DNA of 64,000 bases from positions 1 through 64,000 of IMG/VR virus record IMGVR_UViG_3300033149_002975; one strand, given 5' to 3'. Of the stretch, positions 43,686 through 63,804 are shown in pieces; the first letter of the stretch is position 1; every line of letters begins with the position of its first letter. The translations under genes and the position numbers were made by a program. The notes beneath the pieces are model-generated. The model searched no databases, was not told where the DNA came from, and saw only the letters and a program-made list of their open reading frames with translations. This DNA is from a virus.

Positions 43686-44167
43686 AATTTAATCCTTCTA
43701 GGTGCAATAGAAAAACATCTCACAATTTCCATATCCTGCATACCTTTTAATGAAAGGTTTACAATTTCGAATTCTGATGTTTTCTCAATACCTTCTGGAA
43801 CTGTTTCTATATCAATTTTAAAATATGATTGTTTACAAATAGATACGTCAACTTCCGATCCAGCATCCGATCCCTCTAAAGCTATGGCCTTTGTTCCAAA
43901 CCAAGCAATAATCGGTAAATTATCTTCTACGTATAATCCAAGTTTCTTTAAACGATAAGCGGTTGGTTGCCACTCAATAAAAACCAAAGCCTGATAACTT
44001 ATATATTGAATATCAGATGGTGTTGCAAAAATATCAGATTTTTCAGCTTCATTGTACGATGCCACAGTTGGTATATATAGTATACAATCCTGCCCATAAT
44101 TCGTCAGTGAAACATTTACTTGGGTACGTAAGGCGTCAACTAATTCTTTTGGCAGCATTCTGGACAT
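43682..44167 (-). CDS. Neck/connector protein candidate
   Basis: The protein has 161 residues. It is beta-rich ('QYISYQALVFIEWQPTAYRLKKLGLYVEDNLPIIAWFG', 'ESEF'-like strands) and in the order expected for a head-completion or stopper protein. It starts at the stop of the previous gene (one-base overlap). The call is by position only. Confidence 0.42.
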   Translation of the reverse strand: MSRMLPKELVDALRTQVNVSLTNYGQDCILYIPTVASYNEAEKSDIFATPSDIQYISYQALVFIEWQPTAYRLKKLGLYVEDNLPIIAWFGTKAIALEGSDAGSEVDVSICKQSYFKIDIETVPEGIEKTSEFEIVNLSLKGMQDMEIVRCFSIAPRRIKL

Positions 44168-44982
44168 TATTTTTCATTCTCTTCATATTCAACATTAAAC
44201 GCTGAATCTTCGATATCTACTTCACCGGTTGGTTCTGATTCAATCCTCTTAGCTGCATCATTCAATTTGGATACCAAATTTTTTATGGCCTCAGCTTCAG
44301 TTTTACCATATGCGAACGCCGTATATTTAGCAACTTTTCCAGGAACTTTTTCTGCTAATTCGTTAACTTTTGATTCAAATTGTCTTCCCCTCTTAAATCG
44401 CCTGTAAATTCTTTTTACGTATTCTTCATCAAAAAAATTTCTCAACATGTTTTGTGCTTCTTCATACGATATTGTATCCGTGTCTCCTAATCTATCTTCT
44501 CTTTCTTCAGGGGGTAAAGAATTCCAACCATTCATAAACCATTCAACAAAAGGCTCTTCGTAAGCAACATCCCCTCTAGTATCATCCCACCCGGATTCAT
44601 TTAATTTTTCGTTCATCGTATCGTTAACATATTTGGTTAATTGGTTAACAATATCCTCTACCGAATCACCCTCCCAATAATCTTTATCTTCAGTTGACAG
44701 ATCACCGGCATTCCAAATTGCATCCAATTGCTCGATAGTTAATGGTTTATTGGATATAAACATAACTTTTGAATCAACTTCATCTTGATCATAATCATAA
44801 ATAACTGCGTCACCACCAACTTGTTGCGTGATTTTTACTATTTCTCTACCGGAAAAACTGTCCTTCCAGTCACAGGAAATTTGTGCTACCCTTATTTTAT
44901 CCCCGGATTCATTTAATTTTTTATCCGTAGGTTCTTCCAACTTATCCTGTACAAATTTTAACATTCTTTCAAAAGCATTCAT
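44167..44982 (-). CDS. Candidate packaged head protein with cleavage motifs
   Basis: The protein has 271 residues. The N-terminal peptide 'MNAFERMLKFV...KKLNE' ends in L-N-E followed by S at residues 25/26. Further copies are 'EKLNES' near residue 129 and 'ESKVNE' (nt 44359-44376). Between them are acidic globular segments of unknown fold ('FVEWFMNGWNSLPPEE'). The motif is the [I/L/V]-x-E type cut by gp21-like proteases, so this is read as a three-module polyprotein. Function of the modules is unknown. Confidence 0.5.
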   Translation of the reverse strand: MNAFERMLKFVQDKLEEPTDKKLNESGDKIRVAQISCDWKDSFSGREIVKITQQVGGDAVIYDYDQDEVDSKVMFISNKPLTIEQLDAIWNAGDLSTEDKDYWEGDSVEDIVNQLTKYVNDTMNEKLNESGWDDTRGDVAYEEPFVEWFMNGWNSLPPEEREDRLGDTDTISYEEAQNMLRNFFDEEYVKRIYRRFKRGRQFESKVNELAEKVPGKVAKYTAFAYGKTEAEAIKNLVSKLNDAAKRIESEPTGEVDIEDSAFNVEYEENEK

Positions 44983-45929
44983 TATTTTATACCTCCTACA
45001 ATTTTTTTGGTTTTTTCAACATCTTTCGGGCTTAATTCCCCATCTTCTAATAGATCTTTTAACTCTTTTATAATACGTAAATATTGATAACGAACAATAA
45101 ATTTAAATGTTGCGTTTTTATTCTTCCAAATTTTCTTTAAATTTTCATCCCCCATAGCTTGTTCTTTTGATTGTGGTTGTGAAGCCGACCGGCGGGTTTT
45201 TATTAAATCTGACCTTTTTTTATACAACATTTCTATATCATTTTCTATCTCTTTCAATTTTCCTTCCAATTTGGTAAGAAACGATTTTTTTAAATCTTTG
45301 GGCATTTTAGCTATTGCTTGTTTTATCGTTTCATAATCTATGATGTCACGTTTCAACTCCCCCATTTGCAAATCAACACCCTTTACTTCTTTTCTAATTT
45401 CATCAAAAATTTCTGAATAATCTTCATATGGGTCATAATCCTCCGGAACTATCTTTGGTCCTTTTAACCAATTGTCAGACATTATATTATAACAAGCATC
45501 GGCCAAATATTCCTGGTTTATATTTGATTGTATATAAACTTCAATTGGATATTTTCCAAAATAACCATTGATTTTGTCTCGATTATCAGAAAACCAGTCA
45601 AGTACAGCTTTTGAAAATTGTTCATCCTCATAGTATTTGGAATCCGTTGGTATCACTATATGAACATCAATATCTGAATCCTCACTGTATTGATTGGTAC
45701 ATATTGATCCTGTAATGTGAATCATTTTTTCTGAATCTTCACCGGTAGCCGCCATATCAATCAAATCAACATCTTTGTATTTTCCCAAAACATTTAAAAT
45801 TTTACGCCTTACCAAAGGCTTAAGTGTATATTTACCATTTTTAAAATCCCAAATGGATTTATTTAGAGTTTCACCCCTTGGAAAATCAATTGAAGATTCG
45901 ATGATTCTTTTATATAATTGTCCAAACAT
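44982..45929 (-). CDS. Nucleotidyltransferase-fold protein, candidate packaged head protein
   Basis: The protein has 315 residues. G74-S75 ('HITGSICTNQ') followed by 'SEDSDIDVHIVI' with D86-x-D88 is the active-site pattern of the polymerase-beta-like nucleotidyltransferase superfamily, and 'YPIEVYIQS' may give the third acid. The C-terminal ~130 residues are coiled-coil. N-terminal 'MFGQLYKRIIE|S' fits the proposed targeting/cleavage site. ATG 45929 is chosen because the longer frame would overlap the previous gene. It could modify host RNA, DNA or protein after injection; substrate unknown. Confidence 0.6.
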   Translation of the reverse strand: MFGQLYKRIIESSIDFPRGETLNKSIWDFKNGKYTLKPLVRRKILNVLGKYKDVDLIDMAATGEDSEKMIHITGSICTNQYSEDSDIDVHIVIPTDSKYYEDEQFSKAVLDWFSDNRDKINGYFGKYPIEVYIQSNINQEYLADACYNIMSDNWLKGPKIVPEDYDPYEDYSEIFDEIRKEVKGVDLQMGELKRDIIDYETIKQAIAKMPKDLKKSFLTKLEGKLKEIENDIEMLYKKRSDLIKTRRSASQPQSKEQAMGDENLKKIWKNKNATFKFIVRYQYLRIIKELKDLLEDGELSPKDVEKTKKIVGGIK

Positions 45930-45936
45930 TATTTTT

Positions 45937-48219
45937 CTATTCTTTCCTATCTCCAACTGTCCGCCAAAATAGGTTTTCATCAAATCTTGGGTTGTCCTCT
46001 TTAAACATCCTGACCAAAGCTGAAGCAAAAGCTTTAACATCGTCATTCAATGGTACCAGCTTTTTTAATTCTTTGGCTATCTCTTTATAATGCTTTCTTG
46101 AAAAATGGGATTCATTAACTTTTGATTCTTTCACAATTACTGCAAATTTTTGGGAATCTTCAGAATCCGGTATAACTACCCCGTTTTTCTCTCTCGCAAT
46201 TCTGTCAGCTTCTTCTCTATCAACTATCCCTTTCGCGATAACTGTTCTTGTTTCCTTTTCTTCCTCATTAACTTTGGATTCACCAACTTTTATTGTTCCT
46301 TCTCTATTTGTTTCGTCTACCCTTGCATGCTCATCCAAATAATTTTCCAAAACAATTAACTTGTCACGATCAGATGTTGCATTCCCCGTTTCATATATTG
46401 CTTGTAGTGCTTCTTCAAAAACACATTGTGGCTCTTTAGTCCATACGGGGTCCGAATCAAAATGCACGGTAACTTTGTAATAACTTTCTTTTGGTGAAAC
46501 ATTCCTTGGCAATCTGGCTTCATTAACCCCCGACATTTCAGACCCCAAATATTTTACACCATTTTCCTCAGCTAACTCTTCTCCTGTCTGATCTGCAAAA
46601 TCTTTCAATTCTTCTATCGACAGTGCGTTTTCTGTTCCAGGTTCAGCTATTTGTTGACTATCAAGTCTATGATTTCCAGCGATATAAATTTCTCTATCGG
46701 ATTTCGTGTCCACTATTCTATATCCATATTTGTCTACTACCCCATAAAGATCACCCATTTTCGCGTCTTCATTGGTTTTTCGTTCCGGGAGAATATAAGT
46801 TCCATCCAAATCTTTTATTTTTCTAGAACTAATGACACGTTTTTCCGGACTCTTCACTCTTGCCTTATTCATTGCGTCAACACGCGAATTGGCATCCAAC
46901 TCCACAACTGAACCGTCAAAAAATATAACTCTATATGTGCCGGGGTCAACGTGTACCCCAACTTCGTTCAATTCTCCGGTTATTTTCTCAACTCTTTCAC
47001 TGCCACATTCTGTACATTTAGATTCATTAGCTCTAAAAGTTTTGCAACATTCATTACAAAGATAAAGGCTTTTCCTTGTTAATGATTCACTGGTTCTAAG
47101 ACGACGGCCGGCAGTTCTTCTAGGACGGCCGGCAGTTCTTCTAGGACGGCTGGCAGTTCTTGCCCCACGTTCTGTATAACCACACGAATTACAAACCCAC
47201 GAACCACGAACTGGCGTCATTTTTTTATTGCATTTTGGGCACTTTTTTCCCGCCATTATTCTTTTGCCAACACCAAACTTTTGTCTCTGATATGATCCTC
47301 TACGAGGACCAGTTCCACTTCGTTCACCACTTTTAGTAAAAGATTCACCAACCTTTTTCATGCTACGGGTACCGGTTTCACTGTGAATCTTTTTACCTTT
47401 TGTATCTACTTTTTCTTCCGCCTGGGGGTTTTCCACCATCCCCACATCTTCCGCCTTTAACCCCTTTCCCTCTCCGGGTTTTTGGGTCTGGGGAACATTG
47501 GGTTTTGTTTTATCCTTAACTTTTGCTTTTTTTGATGCCGGTGCAGCAGGTGTTGATTTGGCCTTTGAACCATCAGTAGCCACTACTCCTTCAGCAACCG
47601 TTGATTCACTAGTATCCCAAACAATATTATAAGCTGTTCCGGTTCCATCGTCATTTCGTTTGATATCTAATTCGCTAACTAGGAACCCATAGCTATCGGA
47701 CAAATAATCAGCAACGGCCGTATCATTTCCCGCCTCTTGATCATCCATTATTTCTTTTGGAACATTATCGACCTTTTTTGGTAAATTATTGGCCTCACTT
47801 GTCACAGTTTTACTACGTTTTCCTCTTAACCACCTTCGTTCGGGACCCCACAGGTGGGCACCAGGTAAAGCTTCTCTGATCTTTTTCTTTTCAGTAACTT
47901 CGGTATTGTCAAACAGTTCTCTAATTTTATTATTAATCTCTTTACTGTATGGCAATTCATTTATATCTTCCGGAACATAAATATTGGTAGTTTCTTTACC
48001 GTTGTTAAATTTTATTTCTTCTTTTATGCTGCCAGTAGCTGTTTCTACATAAACGTCAACATCTGAATCAACATCTTTGTATGCCCCAACGTATTGCCAT
48101 ATTCTATTGGCTTCTCTGATCTTTTTCTTTTCAGCTTCCCTTATTGCCCTATCGTTTTCAGCATAAGCTTTTTTCAACGATTCAAAGAGATCAAACATTC
48201 CTTGGTTCTGCATTCTCAT
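45937..48219 (-). CDS. Multi-module packaged head polyprotein with zinc ribbons
   Basis: The protein has 760 residues. Candidate cuts follow LFE|S (residue 13), KIRE|A (twice, 80 codons apart), 'GELNE', 'SGVNE|A', 'ESKVNE' (nt 46264-46281) and 'ESKVNE|S' (nt 46111-46132). Modules include a Thr/Lys/Pro-rich linker, a zinc ribbon 'CPKCNKK...CNSCGY', an Arg-rich repeat (TAGRPRR), a second Cys4 knuckle 'LCNECCKTFRANESKCTECG', and small alpha/beta domains. Basic and zinc parts suggest DNA binding inside the head. No catalytic domain is recognised. Confidence 0.6.
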   Translation of the reverse strand: MRMQNQGMFDLFESLKKAYAENDRAIREAEKKKIREANRIWQYVGAYKDVDSDVDVYVETATGSIKEEIKFNNGKETTNIYVPEDINELPYSKEINNKIRELFDNTEVTEKKKIREALPGAHLWGPERRWLRGKRSKTVTSEANNLPKKVDNVPKEIMDDQEAGNDTAVADYLSDSYGFLVSELDIKRNDDGTGTAYNIVWDTSESTVAEGVVATDGSKAKSTPAAPASKKAKVKDKTKPNVPQTQKPGEGKGLKAEDVGMVENPQAEEKVDTKGKKIHSETGTRSMKKVGESFTKSGERSGTGPRRGSYQRQKFGVGKRIMAGKKCPKCNKKMTPVRGSWVCNSCGYTERGARTASRPRRTAGRPRRTAGRRLRTSESLTRKSLYLCNECCKTFRANESKCTECGSERVEKITGELNEVGVHVDPGTYRVIFFDGSVVELDANSRVDAMNKARVKSPEKRVISSRKIKDLDGTYILPERKTNEDAKMGDLYGVVDKYGYRIVDTKSDREIYIAGNHRLDSQQIAEPGTENALSIEELKDFADQTGEELAEENGVKYLGSEMSGVNEARLPRNVSPKESYYKVTVHFDSDPVWTKEPQCVFEEALQAIYETGNATSDRDKLIVLENYLDEHARVDETNREGTIKVGESKVNEEEKETRTVIAKGIVDREEADRIAREKNGVVIPDSEDSQKFAVIVKESKVNESHFSRKHYKEIAKELKKLVPLNDDVKAFASALVRMFKEDNPRFDENLFWRTVGDRKE
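47104..47161. repeat. Tandem 21-bp repeats within a head-protein gene
   Basis: Nearly three copies with units beginning at 47104, 47125 and 47146 (ACGGCCGGCAGTTCTTCTAG-type). On the minus strand they encode repeats of TAGRPRR, a basic low-complexity linker likely to contact DNA. Confidence 0.85.
47870..48134. repeat. Perfect 25-bp direct repeats flanking an 80-codon module
   Basis: The identical 25-base sequence GCTTCTCTGATCTTTTTCTT-TTCAG occurs at 47870-47894 and 48110-48134, exactly 240 bases apart. On the minus strand each encodes EKKKIREA. The DNA identity goes beyond what protein conservation needs, so a recent duplication or recombination at the module border is likely. Confidence 0.85.
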
Positions 48220-48224: not shown

Positions 48225-48668
48225 TTACTCCTTTATAGAATTTGACATATCTATAATTTTTGCTTTATTGCCATTAATATCCGTCCAATTACCAGCTTGT
48301 CCTGTATTTTCCCAATCAATTAGATCCTTAACTCTGTCATAAATTGTCTTTCCCCGCGTCCACATTGCAACCTCATATTTCCCATTTACATTTATCATCG
48401 GTTTATATTCAACCGGTAAACGGGCAAAACGTGTATTTAACAATGCATGAACCACAGCCGGTGTATTTTTTTCAGACCCCAAAATCCAATTTAAAATATT
48501 GAGGGCCAATTTATCCTTGGGTAAGATACTAGCACCATTTTTTATCAAAATATCAAACAGTTTATCCACACCGGTACAAGGGGCATTCAATTTGTAATCA
48601 CCCAGAATTTGCAACAAGTTTTTATAAACCGTTAAATTTTTAGCTTCAAACAATTTATTGATGTTCAT
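48225..48668 (-). CDS. Candidate packaged head protein, single module
   Basis: The protein has 147 residues. It starts 'MNINKLFE|AKNLT', where L-F-E|A matches the predicted cut in the major capsid protein (KLFE|A). The remaining ~139 residues look globular ('ALNILNWILGSEKNTPAVVHALLNTRFARLP'). No fold is recognised. It lies between two larger proteins with similar N-terminal peptides. Confidence 0.5.
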   Translation of the reverse strand: MNINKLFEAKNLTVYKNLLQILGDYKLNAPCTGVDKLFDILIKNGASILPKDKLALNILNWILGSEKNTPAVVHALLNTRFARLPVEYKPMINVNGKYEVAMWTRGKTIYDRVKDLIDWENTGQAGNWTDINGNKAKIIDMSNSIKE

Positions 48669-48670: not shown

Positions 48671-50086
48671 TTATTTTTCCTTTTTAATAACTAAATCATC
48701 TATTACATTTTTAATTCTTTGAAAAGTCCCCCGTTTAAACAAACCACCAACGGGCCAAATCGTACTGTACACAATTTTGATTCCCGATGTTATATCTTCC
48801 TCAATTGCATCGAGTAACTCTTTGTCGGCCACATAAATTGTCTGACTTGGGTTGTACATAAAATCTATAAGATATTCAAAACCTAAATGGTATCCTTCGT
48901 ATAAAGAATTCATTCTAGTACCAAATATGTAATCAAAATCCCTAAAAACATCAAAAGTATTCAATTCCGACTTATTGGATAATGCAGCAATTAGCATTTC
49001 CAAATTTCCGCGGTCTTCACCGTATTCACGTAATAGTCGTCCATAGATTCGTTGTATATCACGTTTCATTTTCTCATTAGAAACCGCAATTGATTCCCCG
49101 GAAGAAGTTGTATATTGCACAACACCAAATACTGAATACCAATTCCACGCCATCTCTTGAAGTTTTATGAATTCCTTATTATGAAATAACGAATATAATT
49201 CAGTTTTTAATTTTGAACGAAGTTTCTTCATATCCGCTTCATTGGCCTCGAATAAACGACGTTCCTCCAATGATTCCTTCATATTCCCGAGCTTCAACAA
49301 TTTTCCGTTTATCTTGTTGCCAAATATCTTCAAAAAACCATCCCAGTGTTTTTTGGGAACTAAAAACTTGACTTTATTTTTAATTATAAACTGTCGTGGG
49401 TCCAAATCATCTAAAATTTCCAAATCCCAATCAGGTTTTTCTTCAGCTAAAGTTGTAAGCATTGCTTTAACAGCTCCTAGTTGCGTCGGCAAATAAGAAA
49501 TGTTGGACATAGTGGTGGATTCATTAATCTTTACTTCATTGGCGGTTATAAGTTCCATTTCCCGCTTACTTGCACCCAACAACCATTCCAATTGTTCTTT
49601 CGGATGAAGACTTGGAATTGATATAGCCTTCTTAAACCATATAATTCTTCTGAACCCATACCTATCATATAGATTGCATATTGTATTAATTTGTTTGTCA
49701 GTTAATTTTTTCTTATTTTCTATATTAATTTCTTTATTACTAACTGAAACCACAACAGCCCCTGAATCAAGCATACGATATTTATCGTAAATATCACTAT
49801 CTGTATATTCCAGGGCCAACTCCCCCAGCCGTCCTTCTCTGTATTTACGTTCCCCTTTTTTATAACCAAAATCTTTGTGTGCAAACGGTACGTGAATTAA
49901 TGACCCATCATTTAACAACCAAAATTTAACGTAATTACCTTCGCGAGGCCACGTGCTATATTTCTTATAATCAGCTTCTTTCGCAACGCCCCATTTCTTT
50001 TTTACCAATGATTGGATATTGGGCAATCTCGACTCGTCAATCATTACTCCATCAAAGACTTTTGTTGCTAAATTGTATAAAGACAT
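48671..50086 (-). CDS. Multi-module candidate packaged head protein
   Basis: The protein has 471 residues. The N-terminal peptide 'MSLYNLATKVFDGVMIDE|S' ends at residue 18. Internal candidates are 'EVKINE|S' near 192 and 'RRLFE|A' near 282, defining three modules of ~170, ~90 and ~190 residues. The first contains 'YGFRRIIWFKKA...LEWLLGASKRE'; the last is helical. No known domain is recognised. Confidence 0.5.
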   Translation of the reverse strand: MSLYNLATKVFDGVMIDESRLPNIQSLVKKKWGVAKEADYKKYSTWPREGNYVKFWLLNDGSLIHVPFAHKDFGYKKGERKYREGRLGELALEYTDSDIYDKYRMLDSGAVVVSVSNKEINIENKKKLTDKQINTICNLYDRYGFRRIIWFKKAISIPSLHPKEQLEWLLGASKREMELITANEVKINESTTMSNISYLPTQLGAVKAMLTTLAEEKPDWDLEILDDLDPRQFIIKNKVKFLVPKKHWDGFLKIFGNKINGKLLKLGNMKESLEERRLFEANEADMKKLRSKLKTELYSLFHNKEFIKLQEMAWNWYSVFGVVQYTTSSGESIAVSNEKMKRDIQRIYGRLLREYGEDRGNLEMLIAALSNKSELNTFDVFRDFDYIFGTRMNSLYEGYHLGFEYLIDFMYNPSQTIYVADKELLDAIEEDITSGIKIVYSTIWPVGGLFKRGTFQRIKNVIDDLVIKKEK

Positions 50087-50106: not shown

Positions 50107-52272
50107 TTAGTACGGACTTTCTTCCGGTAATCTACCAAGCTTTGTAAGAATCTGCCGCACCTCCTCAAGCCATTTATCTAATTGCAACCCACGTCTAGAC
50201 TCAGGATCATCTATATCCATCACCAGATGTCCAAGTGCCGGAAAATCTCTGTGCCACTGATTAACAGCATTATCTAAAGCAACCAACGCCTCACCCGGGT
50301 CTTTTCTAATTATTGCCGATTGAATTTCTTGTAATCTTTTTCTATACGCTTTATAAATTTCCTCATCTTCAATTTTATCCTGTTCGTATTTATCATACCA
50401 CTCCAAATATCCTTTATAATAGCCCTTCATCATATATAAAGCTTCAAACACGTTTTCTGGTGATGGGTCGATACCCCTTTCTATGTCATGATAAACTTTA
50501 TACAAAGCTTTGACCCCAGAATAATCAACGGATTCTTTTAACCGATTTTTCCAATATTCATTTTCCGCTTTAATACCATTTTCTGAAGTAAATTTTGATC
50601 CACCTTCCTCAAACCACCATTTAGTGTATTCATCAAAAAGATAAAAATCAGCGTAGTGACCCCAAAATTCTATATCGACCCATAATTTTAATTGTAATTC
50701 AGCCTCTAATTGTGCCTTTTCATTCCTTGATAATTTACCGTAAGCAAATTTATCAACTTTGAAATATTTTTCATAATCGGGTTCCCACCACCCCATCCAA
50801 TCACCCGCCGGTACTGGTTTATTGGGTTTTCTATTTAATATATAAATCACCTTATTATTATCAAGAATTTTAACAGTATATTTATCATTCGATGCTTCGG
50901 CTATTGATTTTATCGTTCCATTCGTGTAACCAGTTATTGTTCTTTTATCATTTTCATATTCATCATAAACGAATTTGGCAAATTTGTCTTCATTTATCGA
51001 TTCTCTTAAAGCGTACCCACCACTAAATATACTGTACCCATTTTTATCCCTTGCATCAAACCATTTACTACTTTTTTTCTTTCTAAAAATAATAGCTGGT
51101 GAATTCTTATACATAATTCCGGCAGGAACATGAACTTCAACCATTTCCCCGCCTTTATCAATAATTTTTACATTATCCAATTCCACAATATCCATTTTTG
51201 GGTGTGATCTACTTCCGGACCATTCCGCCCATTTAACCTTAACATTTTCATATTCTTTTGGGTAACCAACAACCTTTTTTCTAGATAATTCTTTCATTTG
51301 TTTCAAATCTTCATCCGCTTGCATACGAGTATCTTCATCATAGTCTTGTGGGTTTATATAAACATTTATATCATAATAATCGGTCGGATTATACTTGCAA
51401 CTTGTATGGTGCCACTCGGACGGGGAAAGAACTTGTTTTAATGCTTTAGTTGTTACACCCAATTTTTTTGCAGCAATGGAAGCAGGGAATTTTCCAATAT
51501 GTTCCGCCTCAACCGCCCTTTTACTTTTAGAATACCCAACATAACCTCTTTCATTAATTGATTCTTTGGTCTCTTCTTTCTCCGGCTCTTCCTTCTCCGG
51601 CTCTTCTTTTTTTATCTCTTTTCTCTTCCCTAATTCCTCGCCAGCCTTTTTGAATTCTTCGGATTCTTTCTTAGCTTCATCCTCGAATTCTTCAATATCT
51701 TTTCCATAAAAATCATTCAACCATCGAGCAATCGTCGAATTGTAAAACGGCAAAGCCTTAAATAATGCGTCCAAATGCTTACACACAGCCCCATATTGAT
51801 GTGGATTTCTAATTCTTGGTGCCCTGGTTTCTTTATCCCCATATTTCGCATTATATTTATCTTTGCTTAATATATAATTGAAACCCCAATATTGCTGACA
51901 GGGACAATTACACGTGATTTTAACTTCCGCTTGATTACGAAATTCATTAGCCAACAACCTTAAATCAATTTTCGATTTATCACGTGTCCACAATCTTCGA
52001 TCTTTTACCAGTTTTTCCAAAGTTGGTGTAATATTTGAAAATTTGATAACCGCGTCATACCATACAGACTTTTTAGTTCCAGAATGAATTTTAAAATGCC
52101 AGGATTCGGTTCCTAATCTATCCAACCTGACACCACCCATATGGCCAACCTTTTCCACACGCCCAGGGTGGGCTGGGAACAAAGAAGTGATGGTACGTTG
52201 CTTTCTTGTAATATCAGCCACCGTTGCTTCATTTATTCTATCAATAGTTTTTGTTAATAATTTGTATAACAT
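50107..52272 (-). CDS. Multi-module packaged head protein with SWIM-type zinc finger
   Basis: The protein has 721 residues. It begins 'MLYKLLTKTIDRINE|A' (cut after residue 15). Residues ~110-190 hold C121-x-C123 ... C164-x-H166 ('ITCNCPCQQYW', 'AVCKHLDALF'), the CxCx(n)CxH spacing of a SWIM zinc finger, which binds DNA or protein. An acidic/basic repeat (EEPEKEEPEK) leads to 'KESINE', and a further 'RESINE' and 'IAE|A' mark later modules. The C-terminal ~170 residues are helical. The enzymatic role, if any, is unknown. Confidence 0.58.
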   Translation of the reverse strand: MLYKLLTKTIDRINEATVADITRKQRTITSLFPAHPGRVEKVGHMGGVRLDRLGTESWHFKIHSGTKKSVWYDAVIKFSNITPTLEKLVKDRRLWTRDKSKIDLRLLANEFRNQAEVKITCNCPCQQYWGFNYILSKDKYNAKYGDKETRAPRIRNPHQYGAVCKHLDALFKALPFYNSTIARWLNDFYGKDIEEFEDEAKKESEEFKKAGEELGKRKEIKKEEPEKEEPEKEETKESINERGYVGYSKSKRAVEAEHIGKFPASIAAKKLGVTTKALKQVLSPSEWHHTSCKYNPTDYYDINVYINPQDYDEDTRMQADEDLKQMKELSRKKVVGYPKEYENVKVKWAEWSGSRSHPKMDIVELDNVKIIDKGGEMVEVHVPAGIMYKNSPAIIFRKKKSSKWFDARDKNGYSIFSGGYALRESINEDKFAKFVYDEYENDKRTITGYTNGTIKSIAEASNDKYTVKILDNNKVIYILNRKPNKPVPAGDWMGWWEPDYEKYFKVDKFAYGKLSRNEKAQLEAELQLKLWVDIEFWGHYADFYLFDEYTKWWFEEGGSKFTSENGIKAENEYWKNRLKESVDYSGVKALYKVYHDIERGIDPSPENVFEALYMMKGYYKGYLEWYDKYEQDKIEDEEIYKAYRKRLQEIQSAIIRKDPGEALVALDNAVNQWHRDFPALGHLVMDIDDPESRRGLQLDKWLEEVRQILTKLGRLPEESPY

Positions 52273-53055: not shown

Positions 53056-53759
53056 ATTTTGCGCGCGAATATGACCCATCTTGAATCTTCAGCCAATCTG
53101 TCTTCAAGTTCCTTGGCCCGTTCTTTTCCATCATTCACCATTGATTGCCCATCATTTGCTATATTAACAATTGATGATTTTCTCAATGTATTGCCTTCTA
53201 TTTGCTGAAGTAGCGCTTTACTGTATCGTAACAGCCAATCGTATATCGGCTCAATTTTTACATCTTCAAATTCTGTGATTCTTTTTGTTCCTATGACGTA
53301 TAACTTATCAGTTCCCGCCGGAACATTTATTGCATATAAATAACCGCCAACATTCATATCTTCAGATTTTTGCCATATAAATTGAAAATCAGTACCAACG
53401 TAAGCTCTATACGATCTGAAAGCCTCTGAAAGCATTATCAAATCGCCGGTTACATTATCCAAAACCGTAATACCCATCAAAGTCCACAACGGATGATCAT
53501 TCCAAATCCACGTTGTGGTTTTTGATGGATAACAATCTGCTACTGCCTTAAATTGTGCATTCAATTGAACACGTTTGGTGCCGGGTGGAAAATCAACCAT
53601 TGTTTCTATACGATAAGCGGAATGTGTATTCCAATACCTAATGGCATTTTCTACTATTTGTTTTAACGTAGTATCTGGTGTTGCCAATTGCAGTGGTAGA
53701 AATTCTTGTTTCAACCATTTTATGTATTTATCATAATTTCGCTCACCTGATTCAGCCAT
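53052..53759 (-). CDS. Head completion/neck protein candidate
   Basis: The protein has 235 residues. It lies just after the major capsid protein, with a terminator-like gap between. 'RIETMVDFPPGTKRVQLNAQFKAVADCYPSK' and 'IEPIYDWLLRYSKALLQQIEGNTLRKSSIVNIAND' resemble adaptor proteins of the head-tail connector. A helical C-terminus ends 'EDSRWVIFARKI'. The function is inferred from order. Confidence 0.55.
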   Translation of the reverse strand: MAESGERNYDKYIKWLKQEFLPLQLATPDTTLKQIVENAIRYWNTHSAYRIETMVDFPPGTKRVQLNAQFKAVADCYPSKTTTWIWNDHPLWTLMGITVLDNVTGDLIMLSEAFRSYRAYVGTDFQFIWQKSEDMNVGGYLYAINVPAGTDKLYVIGTKRITEFEDVKIEPIYDWLLRYSKALLQQIEGNTLRKSSIVNIANDGQSMVNDGKERAKELEDRLAEDSRWVIFARKI

Positions 53760-53867: not shown

Positions 53868-55403
53868 CTAGGCAGTTGTTCCAATACCAGAAATTTTACC
53901 CTTTGTGAATAATCCAGGATTTACAACCTTGAATCCCGCAGAACTTAGGAAACCTTTCTGTGACTGTAGATCACTGGTGATCAGCGTCGGAGTTGCAAAC
54001 AACGGAATATAAGGTGCATAAATGAACGAAGAATACAAAAAGTTTTCGCCTTTATAGGCTTCAACATAACTGTTCTCGTCCATAAATGGATTCTGAACTA
54101 CTATCATGTTGTTAACCGACGTAACATTTCCTATAACTATTGGACCTGTCGGGATATCCTTCTCCCAGTTAAACGAAGGTTTAAACGAACCCTCAAGACC
54201 AAACCCAGGAGTTAATTGGCGAAGCACTCTGGCAACATTATTACCGCAAATGCAAACATTACCAACACCTCTCAAGGTTTTCTTGAAAATAGCATTTGAA
54301 CCCTGAATCAAACGATCCGTAAACTCTCTGCAATGAAGTGTCCACGCCTGACCGGAACGTATTGCAGCGTTCCAAGTGTCATTGGATTCAGCGGCATCAT
54401 CGTCGTCTGCAGCAGCAATCATCATATCAAGACCTCTCTGATCAATTGCAAACTTGGCCATACCGCCAACATACTTGATCATTTCATCTTCAAGATTGAT
54501 GCCGTGCGCTTTCTGCAAATCGATGGCTGCACCCACCGAATATTGTGCACGTGCCGGAAAATCTTCAGCAGTTACTGTTTCCTGTACAACTTCAACATCA
54601 AATCCGGAAACACCAGTTTTCTTGTCGTTATCATCGGTCGGCAAATCATACTGATACCAGTAACTTATCAATACCGTATCATCCGAATCAAGCCCGGAAA
54701 TTTCGATTGAATAAGTACCGGCAGCAGTAATTGTTCCTGCAACCGTAACGCCATCATCATCTACATCAACCAGTGTGCCATCGGAATTACAAGTAGCAAT
54801 TGTCGAATAAGTACCGGCAGCAGTTAATCTTTCGATGATTACATTATCAAGATGAATTAGTCCGGGATTGATGTCAGTTGGACCGGGACCATACGTTCCA
54901 TCACCAACGCCAAGTGTCTCCCTTGAAACCGCAGCCATAGCGTATTTGCGGCCACCGCGCTTCGTGTTGACACCAGTTTTTGCCGATATCAACGATTCTC
55001 CAGCAGCTACCTCACCCTTCTTATTGGCGGCCAATACATTTAGATAAAACACAGCAGCAATTCTTCTATCCAACGGCTGAATGGTAGCTATTTGGTTGAG
55101 AACCAACGAAGGAAGCAATGCAGCAATTACCGGCAACTGAATGCCCAAAAAGCTAATGCTATCTTCAGTCGTGGCCTCAAACAGCTTGCTATGACGTCTA
55201 GACATCGCATCTTCGCGTGCATTCTGCATACACTGGGCAATGGACATCTTCTCGTACAAACTCATCTCACGTCCTTGCTCCGCCTTGACACCCTCTGCAA
55301 CCATTTCTATCAACGGTTTGATCTCTGGATGCTCAAGGAGGCGCATTCGGCGACCCTCCATAAGGGCCATTTCTGATTTCTGTGCCTCTGTTAATGGCAA
55401 CAT
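53868..55403 (-). CDS. Major capsid protein (gp23-like)
   Basis: The protein has 511 residues. The HK97-fold segments include 'LLPSLVLNQIATIQPLDRRIAAVFYL' after the N-arm, and 'GNVCICGNNVARVLRQL', 'GPIVIGNVTSVNNMIVVQNPFMDENSYVEAYKG' and 'APYIPLFATPTLI...KGFLSSAGFKVVNPGLF' near the C-terminus, all typical of gp23. The predicted maturation cut is KLFE76|A77, equivalent in place to the T4 cut. ATG 55403 is preferred over GTG 55412 because of AGGAAAGGTG upstream. It lies after the protease-scaffold gene, as T4 21-22-23. Confidence 0.9.
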   Translation of the reverse strand: MLPLTEAQKSEMALMEGRRMRLLEHPEIKPLIEMVAEGVKAEQGREMSLYEKMSIAQCMQNAREDAMSRRHSKLFEATTEDSISFLGIQLPVIAALLPSLVLNQIATIQPLDRRIAAVFYLNVLAANKKGEVAAGESLISAKTGVNTKRGGRKYAMAAVSRETLGVGDGTYGPGPTDINPGLIHLDNVIIERLTAAGTYSTIATCNSDGTLVDVDDDGVTVAGTITAAGTYSIEISGLDSDDTVLISYWYQYDLPTDDNDKKTGVSGFDVEVVQETVTAEDFPARAQYSVGAAIDLQKAHGINLEDEMIKYVGGMAKFAIDQRGLDMMIAAADDDDAAESNDTWNAAIRSGQAWTLHCREFTDRLIQGSNAIFKKTLRGVGNVCICGNNVARVLRQLTPGFGLEGSFKPSFNWEKDIPTGPIVIGNVTSVNNMIVVQNPFMDENSYVEAYKGENFLYSSFIYAPYIPLFATPTLITSDLQSQKGFLSSAGFKVVNPGLFTKGKISGIGTTA

Positions 55404-55420
55404 GTTCTTCACCTTTCCTT

Positions 55421-57760
55421 TTAAGATTTTAATCCTAATACATTGTTAATAATTGTTTTCTGACGTTTTCTAACTGGGTCGATTGGTTCTTTTCGCTTTT
55501 CAATTAATACCGTTTGCACCGGATTGGCATGAAGTGCACGCCTACGCGAAACATCGCGGCATTCGTCTAAAGCTTTATCGACCTCTTCAATTGTCTGACA
55601 ACTTTCAAGAAGTGCTCGTTGGTTGTCAGAAATTTGTAGCCCATTTGATTCCTTTGTTAAATATTCTTTAATTATTCTTGCTCTAACTTTTTTTTCAGTT
55701 TGCTTTATTTTTTCATCAAATTTTTTGTTGGCCTCCGTCATTTCCCTATCATGCTTTTTCTTTAATCCTGCGGCCTTTTGTTTTAAATATGAAGTTACTT
55801 TTTTGATTTCTGCTTTTGCATTATTAAGTTTCTTCTCCAATATGTTTATCTTTGCTGTTAATTCATTGCTACGTTTCATTAAATCCTGTGCTGATTTTGC
55901 CTTCTCTTCAAGTTTTAACCTTAAAGCCAAAACATCATCAGATTCTGCATTCCTCATTTCTTTAAGCTTTTTGGTAAGAATTCGAAATTCCAAATCTTTA
56001 TCAGCTATGGTATTCAAAAATTCGACTGCCAAATCTCTTTCAGCGCGTGAGGTGGCTTCTTTAATTTGTAATTCCATGATATCTTTACCAATGGGTCTAA
56101 CTATTTCCGGTTTCGATACAGACATTACCCCCTCTGGAACTGTTTCACTGAAAGAAGTTTTCAATATTCCGGCAATTACCTTCGCCATTTCAACAGCTTT
56201 TTCTTTTGTTGGAAAACTAAATGTCAAGTAAGCAGCACCATTTGCTGGCTTCCTATAAACACCGTATTTATCATTCAAAAAACCGGTCTCATCAACAAAT
56301 AATATGTCTTTATCCTCATTAATTTTTGACTCTTCAAGAACTATTATTTCATATTGTGATTCATCATACCAGTCATCAATACCGTCAATTTTTACGGCGG
56401 TCGTTCCTTCGGGTTCCGTTGTACTAACATCCACAACTTTTCCAAATGGAACAATTGTCGTGTTACCGTCTTTATCTTTTATTTGTACAATATTCCCAAC
56501 TTTATAACGTTCATTTAACATTTCATTGATATAATCAATAATTTGTTCCACCGATTCATTCCTTTGGTGTGCCGGTTTTACGGCACGTTTCTTTCCCAAT
56601 GCACCCATACAACGCTTGTAGGCTTCTTTTTGCGTCATTTCTCCAGATTTGATTTTTGCCGCATAACCTGTAGCACATTTGTGGAAAGCTTTCGTGTGGA
56701 CCCCTTTACCTTTTGGGGGTTTCAAACCTTTGCTGGTGTACAATTTTCTAATCTCTTCTGTTTCATTAACTTTTGATTCTTTCATATCTTCCGAATCCAA
56801 ATCAAATTCCTCCTCAAAATCTTCGTCCGACAATTCGATATCTTCACCGGACGTATCATCGTCAACGTCCCCAGTTTCCGTTTGCGTCCCATCATCAGGT
56901 ATAGCTATTTCATCAGGTGCTCCTTGTGGGGGCGTTTCCACGGTAATTTCAACCGTTGAATCGGGTTGATCCGGTAACACATTAACCGATTTTACATCCC
57001 CGGTAGCAACAATTTTTTGTGTATTTGGGTTCACTCCCACCGTTATTTGTTCTTCATTGGTCCTTGATTCAGACGATATTCTAATATTACCTTCAACTAT
57101 TTTACATTCCCCTTTATCATTACACTCTATAGATTCCAAAAGTTTCATTGCAAATCGTTTCTCTTCCGGCTTTATTTTCTCGTTCTCAATTTCTTTGCGG
57201 ACGGCAGACATTATGTTTCTTTTTATGTCTATTGGGAAAGCACCAAATGTTGAAGGGTCTGCCGTAAAATCTGTAACTTTAAAATTATACGCTTCAGGAA
57301 TTACATGATAACATTTATTGCCGGACTCATCAATTTCTTCTCTCAAATCACCCTCAGCCCTCGTTGACACACCAATATTACATTTGGCAGCCAACAATGC
57401 GTCAATAATTCTGCCCTGCGGGGTATCCAGAACATCCATCTCAGTATATACTTTACTCTCGTCCATCCACATTTTAACAATTACGTGAGAAATTAATGGA
57501 GTTTTGGATTGAATGCCGTCAGGGTGCTCTGCGTGCCCAAATAACGAACGATTCTTTATTGAATCCATCAATTCTTTGTTTTCAAAGAGCCTTTCCCACA
57601 CATCGCGTCCGTATATTCGGTGATTGGCATTAATTTTCCCTATATTACAAATGGGATAGACCACACGGCATAAAACACGATCCGGCAATTTGTCGGTTTT
57701 CACCAATCTCCCGCCTGTGGTAATCGATTCATCCAATTTTTGGTTTTTTAATATTCTCAT
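55421..57760 (-). CDS. Prohead protease (gp21-like) fused to internal modules and scaffold-like coiled coil
   Basis: The protein has 779 residues. N-terminal ~190 residues are a gp21-type protease: His79 in 'FGHAEHPDG', Ser132 in 'NIGVSTRAEG', then 'DFTADPSTFGAF'. A peptide KLDE|S ends at residue 11. The middle holds an acidic region, 'KESKVNE', a small Cys module, an SH3-like module and 'ESKINE'. Residues ~570-740 are a long coiled-coil like scaffold gp22. Likely it builds the head core and then cuts itself and the core proteins. T4 encodes these as separate genes. Confidence 0.8.
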   Translation of the reverse strand: MRILKNQKLDESITTGGRLVKTDKLPDRVLCRVVYPICNIGKINANHRIYGRDVWERLFENKELMDSIKNRSLFGHAEHPDGIQSKTPLISHVIVKMWMDESKVYTEMDVLDTPQGRIIDALLAAKCNIGVSTRAEGDLREEIDESGNKCYHVIPEAYNFKVTDFTADPSTFGAFPIDIKRNIMSAVRKEIENEKIKPEEKRFAMKLLESIECNDKGECKIVEGNIRISSESRTNEEQITVGVNPNTQKIVATGDVKSVNVLPDQPDSTVEITVETPPQGAPDEIAIPDDGTQTETGDVDDDTSGEDIELSDEDFEEEFDLDSEDMKESKVNETEEIRKLYTSKGLKPPKGKGVHTKAFHKCATGYAAKIKSGEMTQKEAYKRCMGALGKKRAVKPAHQRNESVEQIIDYINEMLNERYKVGNIVQIKDKDGNTTIVPFGKVVDVSTTEPEGTTAVKIDGIDDWYDESQYEIIVLEESKINEDKDILFVDETGFLNDKYGVYRKPANGAAYLTFSFPTKEKAVEMAKVIAGILKTSFSETVPEGVMSVSKPEIVRPIGKDIMELQIKEATSRAERDLAVEFLNTIADKDLEFRILTKKLKEMRNAESDDVLALRLKLEEKAKSAQDLMKRSNELTAKINILEKKLNNAKAEIKKVTSYLKQKAAGLKKKHDREMTEANKKFDEKIKQTEKKVRARIIKEYLTKESNGLQISDNQRALLESCQTIEEVDKALDECRDVSRRRALHANPVQTVLIEKRKEPIDPVRKRQKTIINNVLGLKS

Positions 57761-57777: not shown

Positions 57778-60700
57778 TTATCTCTTTAAAAGCTTTCTAA
57801 GCAAATCTACACCGCGTGAAGGAACAATAAAATCTTGTGGTTGCCTGGTTTCTTCCAATTTTTTGTCATTTTTCTTGATACGCACCGCTTCCGATATTTT
57901 TATTGATGGATAAGCAGCGTGCACGGCACGTTTTACTTTATCCTGTAAACTCTTTAAGGACCCAGAATACCAAGGTGGTGACGACTTATAATGCTTACAA
58001 TACGATAAAGCGGCCCTTGCTTGCTTGGCGGTATTAATTGGAAAATGATCTTTTTTGTCTTTTGATTTTTCTGCAGGAAATACGACCTTACCTCTATTAC
58101 GGTTTTCGGCTTTTGGATTCAATTTCCTACCGGTTTTCTTGGAAACCATTGCTTCTCGTAATTTATTCATTTTTAACCCCTTTTCATTCATTGATTCCTT
58201 TAAAATCGGTGCTTCTACGCCCGGACTACCAAAAATATCTGGGCTTCCATAATACATCAACAAATCTGATACTCTATACGGTAATGGTTTTTTCATCCAT
58301 TCTTCCTCTGATCCTGCACCGGAAAACTTCACTACATCCTTGATATTAAACCGCCCACCATTTTCTATTAATTCTTTAAGATCATCCTCTGAAAATTCAG
58401 TAATGGAAAATTTAGTATATTCATCAGGGTTTTCTTCACCGCCGTGTTGTGTTCCATAAATAAACAAGAAATTCCCATTACCCAAGTCTTTATGTATCAA
58501 ACCATAATTGTAAAGACTTATTTCAACATTCGCATCAACGGAACCTTCAAAACCGTCATCAATGGCCCTAGTTAACGTGTAATCATTTGGAATTTCTTTC
58601 ATAGTCTCATTAATTTTTGATTCTTTCAACATACCGGAATAAACATAAAATTTATTATCTATATCTATTACATAATCATAATTATCTGCATCTTCTTTAG
58701 CAACCTCGACCCATTCCGACAATTCGTCATTGTTCACATTAAACAGTATTACATACCCATTGTATTCTTCTATCAATTTATAACCGGAATCTTCAATCAA
58801 ATCGATATGTTCGTTAATATTGGATTCATTTCTTGGTTTAAATTGACCCTCCCCACGCCTGGCTTGGTCCTCAGTTCTCTTTAATTCATCGCCGTGCAAA
58901 ATGTAAGGATTTTCCTCATCTTCATCAGATTCCTCATCATTATTTTCCTCAGCACTCTGCTTGACCAAATCATCATATTCCTCTTGTTCCATATATGACA
59001 AGGCATCCAATGCCAATTCCCGCAAACCTTCTTCCGACAATTCACCTTCTGAATTTCTCCACATAGAAGCAAAGTCCGAGTCAAAACGAAATTCACGACC
59101 ATTTATGCTTATCACTGTATCCAGTGTTCCATCATCTTCCAAATAAACATCAAATTCATTCGTTCCATCAGAAACTTTCATTTCAATTAACGGCTTATTC
59201 ATTTTCGACTCTTTAAGAGACATGCTTCTCAACCATGCATGAATTTCCGGTTTATTATAATCAGTAAATAATGAAGACCTTATATAATCATTTATTTTGT
59301 CAATACTGCTATTATTTGGTGTAAGCCCGCCGCTCCAATCCTTGAAATCAGCTATTATTGCATTTTTAGCATCCTCTGACAACAAATCGTTGGGACATTT
59401 TTCCCCTCTCATTTTTCTTACACCTTTATCCCCATAAATGCTTCTTTGTGCAGAATCTTTGTATGGGCCAGTACCATCCCTTTTACCACGAATATTTTTT
59501 CCTTCACTAATCTGTTTTAAAATTTTTGATGCCAAATCAATTTTTGATTGCAATTCGTTGATATCATCAAACGTCAACTTATAAGTTTTTATCAAGGTAT
59601 CTATTACTAAACGAGTTGTGTCCAAAGCCATATTTTCTCTTTTTTTAGTTGGATCACTCTTTACTTTAATTATGGCATCTGATACAATTTTTGCAATCTC
59701 TTCATCGTTTGGCAACGCCACTTTTTCAACAATATCTTTCATCATTTTAATCTTAAAACCCCTATCATCACATTGTGGACAAATACCACCTCTTCTTAGT
59801 TCAGAGTATTTAGCTTTATATCCACACATCGGACAAATGTATTCATCGGCTAGCAACCCCGCTTTTTCAACAATTTTCGATTCCTTTTTCTCCCTTTCAA
59901 TCTCTGCCGGGTGTGGCGGCGGCTCAACTTTTGATCCTTTTTCCCCCGTATTTTCCTCTTCTTCTGGCTCTTCCTCTTCTTCTGGCTCTTCCTCTTCTTC
60001 TGGCTCTTCCTCCGGTTCTGGTGCTTCTTCTTCAGGCATTATATAATTCATCACTACATCCCTAGTTACTGAATCTATATCAACATCCCTTATTACCGAA
60101 GCAACAAACCCACGTATATCTTTAACATCCAATAATTTTTCTTTTGCAGAATAAACTTTATTGCCCTCCTGATCAACCAATTGCAAATCCCCATCATCGG
60201 TCGTTACCATATAATAATGGTTGTCTTCCGATTCCCCTACATATTCCTTCTCAATTGGGGCTTCTTCTGGTTCCGTATCAGTATCGGCCTTTTTCCCTAA
60301 TTCCTGCTCTGGTCTAAATTTAGGTTTGTGTTCTGTTTTTGGTTTCAGTTCTTTGGGGATATCTTCATAGTTGGGTTCTTCTACATCCCCTTTTATTTCA
60401 TCTTCATTAACTCTAGACTCATCAACAATCAATGAACTAGATTCCGCGAATTTATCATAAAAAGCAATAAACCTATCTATCGCTTCTTCAACATTTTTTA
60501 CAAAACGTTTACTGTTCCTATCTTTCGTAGTATAGAATTGTGCAAGATTAAACTCTGGAGTATCAACGGAAACGTAAAAACCATCATCACGCTTTTTTAC
60601 TTTAACATCTTTTCTCTCTATTCCTTCATTAACTTTGGATTCGGTGGCCTTTGCCAATTTTTTAACTTTTCTAGCAAACCTATTGATCCATCTTTCCTCA

Positions 60701-61074
60701 CCGGTATCTTTTATGCGAATTTTTAATGATCTATTATCGGGACTTATATCCAAAATTTCGGCGTCGGACCATTGTTTGCCGCCTTTAGTAACAGCTTGTG
60801 ATCCACCCACCGGGACTTTGACTATTTCACCGATTTTATAGGTTAATTTTCTATATATGTCTGGATCCGGAATATTGGATTCACCCACCAATGAATTGCG
60901 AATATTCTCTACAGTTGTTATTCTCGTCGATTTATTAACCGATCGCAGCTTTCTGCTACCGACAGCAATTCTTTCAAAAAGCGACATATTGGGGTCTTTA
61001 AATTTTTTGGAACTCGTCAACGAACTGTCTTTTATCCCCCTGCGCCTTTTTGCCAAATCTTCAAATAAGCTCAT
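57778..61074 (-). CDS. Giant multi-module head polyprotein (prohead core candidate)
   Basis: The protein has 1098 residues and about eight motif copies: 'VGES', 'ESKVNE', 'ESRVNE', 'ESKIVE', 'ESKMN', 'ESNINE', 'ESKINE', 'ESMNE'. Modules seen: an SH3-like domain (nt 60640-60850), an acidic Glu/Pro repeat, a zinc ribbon 'CPMCGYK...CPQC', several acidic alpha/beta segments, and a C-terminal DUF6582-like segment ('HFPINTAKQARAAL...VKRAVHAAYPSI'), known from phage scaffold/protease neighbours. Read as core/internal protein cut into peptides. No enzyme is recognised. Confidence 0.65.
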   Translation of the reverse strand: MSLFEDLAKRRRGIKDSSLTSSKKFKDPNMSLFERIAVGSRKLRSVNKSTRITTVENIRNSLVGESNIPDPDIYRKLTYKIGEIVKVPVGGSQAVTKGGKQWSDAEILDISPDNRSLKIRIKDTGEERWINRFARKVKKLAKATESKVNEGIERKDVKVKKRDDGFYVSVDTPEFNLAQFYTTKDRNSKRFVKNVEEAIDRFIAFYDKFAESSSLIVDESRVNEDEIKGDVEEPNYEDIPKELKPKTEHKPKFRPEQELGKKADTDTEPEEAPIEKEYVGESEDNHYYMVTTDDGDLQLVDQEGNKVYSAKEKLLDVKDIRGFVASVIRDVDIDSVTRDVVMNYIMPEEEAPEPEEEPEEEEEPEEEEEPEEEENTGEKGSKVEPPPHPAEIEREKKESKIVEKAGLLADEYICPMCGYKAKYSELRRGGICPQCDDRGFKIKMMKDIVEKVALPNDEEIAKIVSDAIIKVKSDPTKKRENMALDTTRLVIDTLIKTYKLTFDDINELQSKIDLASKILKQISEGKNIRGKRDGTGPYKDSAQRSIYGDKGVRKMRGEKCPNDLLSEDAKNAIIADFKDWSGGLTPNNSSIDKINDYIRSSLFTDYNKPEIHAWLRSMSLKESKMNKPLIEMKVSDGTNEFDVYLEDDGTLDTVISINGREFRFDSDFASMWRNSEGELSEEGLRELALDALSYMEQEEYDDLVKQSAEENNDEESDEDEENPYILHGDELKRTEDQARRGEGQFKPRNESNINEHIDLIEDSGYKLIEEYNGYVILFNVNNDELSEWVEVAKEDADNYDYVIDIDNKFYVYSGMLKESKINETMKEIPNDYTLTRAIDDGFEGSVDANVEISLYNYGLIHKDLGNGNFLFIYGTQHGGEENPDEYTKFSITEFSEDDLKELIENGGRFNIKDVVKFSGAGSEEEWMKKPLPYRVSDLLMYYGSPDIFGSPGVEAPILKESMNEKGLKMNKLREAMVSKKTGRKLNPKAENRNRGKVVFPAEKSKDKKDHFPINTAKQARAALSYCKHYKSSPPWYSGSLKSLQDKVKRAVHAAYPSIKISEAVRIKKNDKKLEETRQPQDFIVPSRGVDLLRKLLKR
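59955..60008. repeat. Three tandem 18-bp repeats encoding an acidic linker
   Basis: The unit CCTCTTCTTCTGGCTCTT is present in three exact copies. On the minus strand it encodes a Glu/Pro repeat (PEEEEE) in the giant head polyprotein, probably an extended acidic spacer. Confidence 0.85.
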
Positions 61075-61417: not shown

Positions 61418-61428
61418 CAATTTACCCT

Positions 61429-61614: not shown

Positions 61615-61629
61615 AATACACCCAATCAA

Positions 61630-63162: not shown

Positions 63163-63170
63163 CTATTAAT

Positions 63171-63383
63171 TTATTCCTTTTTCTCGTTTAAATTTTGTTT
63201 TTTTAAAATTTTCTTTGATTCGTTTGTCCCATCGCCAATATCCGCTGCCGGTATTTCCTTATCTTTTGTCAAACTTAATATTTTGGCTACCGATTGTAGA
63301 TTCTGTACACCGCCTTGCTTCAGCGCGATATCACACAACTGAACAATAACTTCACGTCCTTCTTTGTCAACTATTATTTCCAT
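63171..63383 (-). CDS. Hypothetical 70-residue protein
   Basis: Helical with a polar, Lys-rich C-terminus ('ESKKILKKQNLNEKKE'). The N-terminal 'LCDIALKQGGVQNLQSVAKIL' may be a small helical domain. It overlaps the upstream gene by 17 bases. It could be a small prohead-core protein (T4 gp67/68-like) by place and charge. Confidence 0.45.
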   Translation of the reverse strand: MEIIVDKEGREVIVQLCDIALKQGGVQNLQSVAKILSLTKDKEIPAADIGDGTNESKKILKKQNLNEKKE

Positions 63384-63804
63384 TATTCGCCCCCTTTAAT
63401 ATTGAATTGTATATTTCTTCGTTTAAACGTTCCTGAATTGCAGGAATCAACATTCTGAATTCCAAATTACCTTGCTGGCATTCTATAATTACATGCGTCA
63501 AAAGACTCGACAAACCCTTTGCCACCGTAAATCCGTCAATTTTTTCTTCCACCCCTTCGTGAATCTTTTTCCCACGGCATATTTGAAGAAGCGTTCTATA
63601 AATGTGCTTTTTATCCTTCAATTTTCCAATGATTTCCGCGGATAGATGATCCGGCGTTGGTAATTTTAAAATTTCTTGTTCACATAGTTCATATGAATGG
63701 TTAGTAAATAATCTCATCGCCTTATCAACGATTTTTTGATACTTGGTCCCCGAAAGATAAATCTCGGCTTCCATTAATTTGGATAAAAGCTCTGCATTAA
63801 TCAT
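63367..63804 (-). CDS. Hypothetical head-module protein with N-terminal cleavage-like motif
   Basis: The protein has 145 residues, 'MINAELLSKLME|AEIYLSG' at the start: L-M-E|A at residues 10-13 fits the proposed targeting/cleavage pattern. The rest is helical ('GLSSLLTHVIIECQQGNLEFRMLIPAIQERL'). Function unknown. Confidence 0.5.
   Translation of the reverse strand: MINAELLSKLMEAEIYLSGTKYQKIVDKAMRLFTNHSYELCEQEILKLPTPDHLSAEIIGKLKDKKHIYRTLLQICRGKKIHEGVEEKIDGFTVAKGLSSLLTHVIIECQQGNLEFRMLIPAIQERLNEEIYNSILKGANNGNNS

Follow-up and report, generated by a model that had tools for sequence, protein, structure and literature searches.

Bases 1–64,000 of the IMG/VR virus record IMGVR_UViG_3300033149_002975 (designated G000 here), referred to below as the window, include most of a head gene block whose products carry numerous candidate prohead protease sites. 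The record comprises 102,811 base pairs (bp) and its genome is complete, as its ends share a 114-bp repeat. Read from right to left on the minus strand, the head block consists of the portal gene, several small genes, the gene for a 1098-amino acid (aa) protein, and the genes for the prohead protease, the Gp23 capsid protein, neck, a row of unassigned proteins and the tail sheath. We consider it probable that this block provides for T4-type head maturation in which polyproteins serve as the precursors of many core and internal proteins and are cut by a gp21-type protease, the cargo modules then probably being injected into the host.

An earlier reading of the DNA (the sequence-only reading) had proposed that these proteins are cut at serial [I/L/V]-x-E sites into many peptides. 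Nine [I/L/V/M]-x-E sites that it named, eight in N-terminal leaders and one (KLFE/A, where the slash marks the predicted cut) in the capsid protein, were all found in the translations at the places given. The sites are on the minus strand; the coordinates quoted, which also serve as gene names below, are the low ends of the open reading frames (ORFs), and the sites lie at the opposite end of each ORF. Because the pattern had been derived from this same sequence, independent tests were sought in related loci.

The scheme that we propose borrows its logic from phage T4, whose gp21 protease cuts at L/I-x-E and chops gp22 and gp67 (PMC9026906) and whose internal proteins are a diverse anti-restriction set that shares only the targeting leader (PMC3012670). 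By analogy, a short N-terminal leader, equivalent to the T4 capsid-targeting sequence, would bring each precursor into the prohead, where the gp21-type protease would cut after Glu at [I/L/V/M/F]-x-E/[A/S] (hereafter hxE/[AS], with h for a hydrophobic residue) and at (E)SK[V/I]NE/x linkers. These cuts would trim the capsid protein, strip the leaders and free small modules; scaffold modules would be expelled or left as fragments, whereas cargo modules would remain with the DNA and probably be injected. With a cut site attached to every module, swaps, fusions and separations of modules would leave the mature product unchanged, and such free exchange fits counter-defence cargo.

Leader sites coincide with internal joints of fused proteins

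About 14 related IMG/VR loci were recovered with a tail-sheath alignment of three phages followed by a capsid alignment of the clade; their capsid proteins are 39–57% identical. Scanning IMG/VR with the capsid protein alone found no relatives, and a scan with the 1098-aa protein alone returned a single near-identical contig.

We regard as the strongest evidence that the predicted leader cut of a free-standing gene equals the internal joint of a fused protein and has the same motif there. Module B of the 48671 protein is free-standing in most relatives, in seven of which the start of the gene aligns at junction 189, and the leader cut of the best-aligned homologue (RLLE/ATTMD in L102) falls exactly at residue 189 of the window protein, in the joint KINE/STTMS. 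Likewise, junction 580 of the 50107 protein and the leader cut of G003_33835 fall at equivalent positions. In the window, L105 and G004, the nucleotidyltransferase starts with a leader of its own, but it is fused behind other modules in G001 (VTE/SLIDFP), G003 (VLE/STIDFP) and L103 (VSE/SAIDFP), and the DUF5662 module is free in G000 (LTE/A) and fused in L099 (ITE/S) and L103 (FNE/S). In a systematic test of such junctions, a site was no more than 8 residues away from the predicted point in 14 of 35 cases, compared with 8.2% of random positions (p=3e-7). Removal of capsid-gene fragments and 3-residue leaders, a filter applied after the test, changed this to 13 of 17, seven of them at offset 0. 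Together with the architectures described next, these results place candidate cut sites at the joints between separate functional units, as expected of polyproteins.

When 17 small-module queries were placed on all proteins of the clade, 16 families occurred in at least two architectures. The middle module of the 44167 protein (residues 130–205, between the second KLNE and ESKVNE) is found in L106 within the protease polyprotein, with ESKIAE in front of it; a VQELIGE module belongs to the protease in G004 and to another protein in G003, L099 and L102; and the zinc-ribbon and TVIAKG modules of the 45937 protein recur in other orders in relatives. Head-block modules of the relatives also include an SLT transglycosylase, Hydrolase_2, a GNAT-like stretch (below the Pfam cut-off) and Tad3, an inhibitor of type I Thoeris. 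The last of these is free-standing behind ..DLNE/S in one locus (L110:3186–3716), part of a two-module protein behind MNE/S in G001 (L095:3371–4210) and part of a large polyprotein behind SINE/S in G004 (L091:5934–8303); in cultured phages, the Tad3 match starts after that leader. The position of Tad3 behind hxE/S in three relatives suggests head-packaged anti-Thoeris cargo.

Cleavage at serial sites is thus well supported as a prediction from these sequences, and we conclude that such sites would let one precursor deliver several modules. Injection of the hydrolase, Tad3 and nucleotidyltransferase modules is plausible, and the SLT and cell-wall hydrolase modules in the relatives' head-block proteins would suit injected cargo. 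Whether the group has gone further and possesses an evolvable delivery platform is, in our estimate, evenly balanced: modules flanked by hxE/S or ESKVNE would ride in a polyprotein and be freed by the head protease as separate effectors that enter with the DNA, with Thoeris inhibitors and cell-wall hydrolases among the cargo and domain shuffling as the means of exchange. If the proposed scheme is right, the functional units would be the pieces between cut sites, gene boundaries would not reveal the head contents in this group, and searching between hxE/S joints would find injected effectors of uncultured phages, including immune inhibitors like Tad3. The polyprotein strategy, familiar in eukaryotic RNA viruses, would then also apply to what a tailed DNA phage carries inside its head.

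Candidate sites are enriched in the head block and conserved in relatives

The motif ESK[VIM]NE occurs in the head block only, with 0 copies elsewhere in the whole record. A generalised internal motif, ES-x(0-2)-[ILVMAT]-x-E, had 23 occurrences in the head block, where shuffles predict 3.9; the corresponding figures were 5 and 6.0 for the rest of the genome (24,000 residues) and 60 and 59 for outgroup T4-like loci. For hxE[AS], there were 60 occurrences in the head block versus 23.8 expected (2.5-fold) and 51 versus 44.7 in the rest of the genome (1.14-fold). Of the head-block cases with Ala or Ser at P1', 51% have a hydrophobic residue at P3, compared with 32–33% for the rest of the genome, so that a protease-like P3-P1-P1' rule is recovered from the data without assuming the ESK context. 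N-terminal sites were found in 11 of 27 head-block proteins and 8 of 102 others (p=1e-4; the start calls are imperfect), and at least eight head-block proteins that are unrelated to one another carry leaders of about 5–25 residues ending in hxE, as in capsid-targeting sequences. Glu-rich head proteins of a low-GC genome might yield [I/L/V]-x-E accidentally: [ILVMF]xE is common, and hxE[AS] reaches 1.26 times expectation even in the outgroup loci. This explanation was rejected on the shuffles and the rest-of-genome and outgroup controls, and it is also contradicted by conservation among orthologues and at junctions; we consider it exceedingly improbable. An origin of ESKVNE as a DNA repeat was rejected as well: since the codons differ between copies, its conservation appears to be at the protein level.

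The sequence-only reading took KLFE/A of the capsid protein as a T4-like trimming site, and it does align with sites in the relatives. The site is kept in 13 of the 13 that reach it, as [LMIV]FE or LQE (one LLQE) before A, T or N, and a matching site is present in Listeria phage LIS04, Streptococcus phage vB_SagM-GXN1 and phiXF1. The leader Glu11 of the protease is invariant in 14 of 14 sequences. In the family of the SWIM protein (50107), 13 of 13 members have [ILM]xE at a matching position ahead of the conserved start, with leaders that vary in sequence and in length (about 5–25 residues); the family of the 147-aa protein (48225) has hxE before its conserved start in 10 of 11 (the eleventh could not be resolved). 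The orthologue of the 63367 protein in G004 reads ..LIDLNE/ASKYFSGTKYQK, and the leaders in L104 and G003 likewise end in xxE/A.

Internal sites of the relatives take the forms ESKVNE, ESKTNE, ESKVDE, NESKIAE, ESVLDE, KKVNEQ and a longer linker that ends in KLTE. This second linker family, EGxVxSxxDxDSEExxIxKLTE, is repeated across head proteins (G003 L092, 9929–10450 and 12986–14488; L101:49–2727; L106:3980–6463) and may represent another kind of processing linker.

The protease and models of the polyproteins

The protease itself, recognized in the sequence-only reading as gp21-like, scores 32.4 bits with the S77 profile PF03420 (curated cut-off, 27) and matches phrog_207 with an E-value of 5e-28. 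The best Foldseek match of its modelled N-terminal domain is T4 gp21 (5jbl_A, E 4.5e-9, template modelling score of 0.76 to the target). His79 and Ser132, which we take to be the catalytic His/Ser pair, are conserved in at least 90% of the 14 sequences. By sequence and modelled fold, the enzyme thus appears to be a T4 gp21-type protease (Peptidase_S77), with a predicted specificity for cutting after [I/L]-x-E. Its model is ordered at residues 1–168 and disordered at 206–332, a stretch that ends at an ESKVNE site, and continues with a module at 335–400 and a long coil at 557–704.

The model of the 1098-aa protein has a low overall confidence (mean predicted local distance difference test score of 48) and a poor alignment behind it, the latter because modules are shuffled. 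It contains islands at residues 274–349, about 455–510, 625–715 and about 997–1062 with low-confidence stretches between them; the first, third and fourth islands are confident, and the candidate sites LKE/S (622) and ISE/A (1062) lie on island borders. The repeats noted in this protein are present, although the earlier count of about eight ESK(V/I)NE copies is reached only with relaxed forms (six to eight); strict ES[KRN][VI]NE gives 4. Our recount of the polyproteins came to about 4,700 residues (previously some 4,500), and their division into peptides was not borne out, as the products would mostly be small folded or conserved modules.

These data bear on an alternative that we regard as unlikely, namely, that the polyproteins amount to nothing more than an enlarged scaffold, whose sites serve to chop core proteins for their exit from the prohead, as happens to T4 gp22, gp67 and gp68, so that nothing functional reaches the host. 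In its favour, the 1098-aa protein and the tail of the protease are encoded where the core genes lie in T4; they have acidic or coiled-coil character and numerous sites, and T4 gp22 and gp67 are also cut into multiple fragments (PMC9026906). By analogy with T4, this protein and the tail are indeed more likely to be core or scaffold, and the idea that the entire polyprotein set is injected has to be narrowed accordingly: the 1098-aa protein and the C-terminal half of the protease would probably be chopped and expelled. Other members, however, contain enzymes or enzyme-like modules (nucleotidyltransferase, SLT, Hydrolase_2, GNAT and Tad3), and such modules are also encoded elsewhere as free-standing genes with leaders, for which scaffold fragments would have no need.

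Several further points weigh against polyprotein cleavage and cargo delivery. The virus is an uncultured relative of T4, and Tad3 and the hydrolases were seen in relatives rather than in the window. The 1098-aa protein showed no clear hxE/[AS] leader. Some motif matches fall inside ordered regions (protease residues 101, 145 and 156; residue 281 of the 1098-aa protein), so that real cuts must be fewer than motifs; in the comparisons with relatives, internal sites do separate modules, as the sequence-only reading had it, but matches within confidently folded domains are probably not cut. A tandem double cut, E/SK[VI]NE/, was considered and rejected, as a hydrophobic residue two positions before the first Glu was found in 15 of 54 sites, which is the background rate. 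Finally, the ESKVNE linkers could be docking motifs. On that account, the ESK[VI]NE repeats would bind the shell or the protease-scaffold, or would be flexible linkers between domains, with cuts confined to the classical N-terminal sites; various residues follow the last Glu, in contrast to the A/S of the N-terminal sites, and in some relatives the linkers take other forms, such as EGKVPSDKDDSEEKIxKLTE. Against this stand the fused junctions, where the internal site and the leader cut of the free-standing homologue coincide at offset 0 (although these joints are mostly plain hxE/S and not ESKVNE), and the conformity of [VI]NE to the P3-P1 rule. We thus consider a purely binding or linking role quite improbable and favour cleavage at the internal sites.

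Comparison with known systems

One close parallel is T4 prohead maturation, which involves gp21, the targeting sequences of IPI-III and Alt, and the chopping of gp22, gp67 and gp68. Both systems have a protease of the gp21 fold, a Gp23 trimmed at hxE/A, many head-block proteins whose short leaders end in hxE and several cuts in core proteins, the cuts in the present virus being predicted. In T4, however, internal proteins are the products of separate genes, whereas here they form strings of interchangeable modules that have sites where they join, and protease and scaffold make up one fusion protein. In the giant phages SPN3US and phiKZ, the prohead protease also cuts after x-x-E, favours Ser at P1' and makes several cuts per propeptide, and a large protein load is ejected (PMC10052503). 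The SPN3US motif is A-X-E, and multiple cuts there destroy propeptides and do not separate mature modules (PMC10052503); the sites described here have I/L/V/M/F at P3 and do not follow the A-x-E/S-x-E pattern of SPN3US/phiKZ substrates.

The polyvalent proteins of phages and plasmids (Iyer et al. 2017) are similarly multidomain and mosaic through shuffling and, according to the available text of that account, are thought to be packaged and delivered with the DNA for early conflict with the host (PMC5512222). The same text presents them as acting intact or being cut by a built-in metallopeptidase, and head-protease cutting at each joint, as predicted here, is not described in it (PMC5512222). 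Pfam scans of the window proteins found no known polyvalent domain, such as MPTase. DarB of phage P1 is an anti-restriction protein targeted N-terminally into the head, and Dar proteins are processed; P1 is an unrelated phage, for which serial module sites were not reported (PMC9024508). The cultured distant relatives LIS04 and GXN1 have the same kinds of genes, a protease with a coiled-coil tail and several leaders ending in LxE, but lack ESKVNE-type repeats, and the LIS04 capsid protein is only 26% identical. Searches of cultured phages gave no match for the 57778 or 48671 proteins, and the SWIM and nucleotidyltransferase proteins matched only Maribacter, GXN1 and uncultured huge phages, the genes in Maribacter Molly_1 not being adjacent to annotated head genes. 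The openly searchable literature yielded no account of head-packaged polyproteins whose modules are exchangeable and have a site at every joint, and we judge that T4-type head processing with exchangeable modules joined by predicted cut sites is apparently new relative to T4.

Gene content of the head block and its surroundings

Table 1. Head-block features and their predicted cut sites (slash, cut; numbers in parentheses, residue before the cut). Coordinates are those of the window except where G000 is given.
Feature	Coordinates	Strand	Predicted sites	Basis
Portal	G000 69640–71397	minus		phrog_1497
Head-block protein, C-terminal part within window (runs to G000 64691)	63819–64000	minus	internal ESRIDE/E (63897–63899); leader ..RLRRFQE/A beyond window end	
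145-aa head-block protein	63367–63804	minus	leader MINAELLSKLME/A, with KLME/A at residue 12	
1098-aa putative core/cargo polyprotein, upstream of protease	57778–61074	minus	ESKVNE, ESRVNE, ESNINE, ESKINE, LKE/S (622), ISE/A (1062)	translation and structure model
Prohead protease fused to linker modules and coiled-coil scaffold	55421–57760	minus	leader MRILKNQKLDE/S (11); internal MKE/SKVNE/T (328, 333), LEE/SKINE/D (477, 482)	PF03420, phrog_207
Major capsid protein (Gp23)	53868–55412	minus	KLFE/A (79), codon 55176–55178	PF07068, E 7.5e-31, 108 bits vs cut-off 24.4; site aligned with relatives' sites
721-aa polyprotein with SWIM-like module and C-terminal LGRLP module	50107–52272	minus	leader MLYKLLTKTIDRINE/A, with RINE/A at residue 15; ESINE/R (241), LRE/SINE/D (424, 428), RLKE/SVDY (580)	
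471-aa two-module protein	48671–50086	minus	leader ..VMIDE/SRLP (18), module A, KINE/STTMSNISYLP (189), module B	
147-aa head-block protein	48225–48668	minus	leader MNINKLFE/A (8)	
760-aa polyprotein with zinc ribbons	45937–48219	minus	leader MFDLFE/S (13) from ATG at residue 8; internal VNE/A (567), ESKVNE/E (652), ESKVNE/S (703)	
Nucleotidyltransferase	44982–45926	minus	leader MFGQLYKRIIE/SSIDFP from ATG 45924–45926	PF01909, E 4e-5
271-aa three-module protein	44167–44982	minus	KLNE/SG (25), KLNE/SG (129), ESKVNE/L (208)	

In the nucleotidyltransferase gene, RIIE/S corresponds to residue 50 of the long ORF, or to residue 10 when counted from the inner ATG, at which the ORF almost certainly begins; this start gives the leader listed in Table 1 and removes the overlap with the neighbouring gene. 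Just beyond the window, a pentapeptide-repeat protein (G000 64708–66081; L002:708–2081) has the leader ..KIKRLAE/SK and two repeat blocks with a linker between them, and is a possible head-packaged DNA mimic.

An ORF resembling zinc-finger HNH endonucleases (window 52276–53079) separates the SWIM polyprotein gene from the neck gene, has a homologue in L099 and is probably a homing endonuclease. Insertions and interrupted genes were also seen in the relatives: there are intein-like insertions in the SWIM protein of G004 (L090/L091, 28960–31992 of the joined reverse strand) and in the portal genes of G001, G002 and G004, the G002 portal reaching 1811 aa with three repeated insert segments. An endonuclease-like ORF splits the capsid gene in L106 (10004–12888), and a similar split is found in G002 (L097/L098), whose head block also encodes a protein with collagen-like SGYSGIS repeats (12147–13253 of the joined reverse strand, L098). 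At the other side of the window, before the tail genes, a run of minus-strand ORFs (14828–21748) resembles glycosyltransferases and sugar-related enzymes by the look of the sequences.

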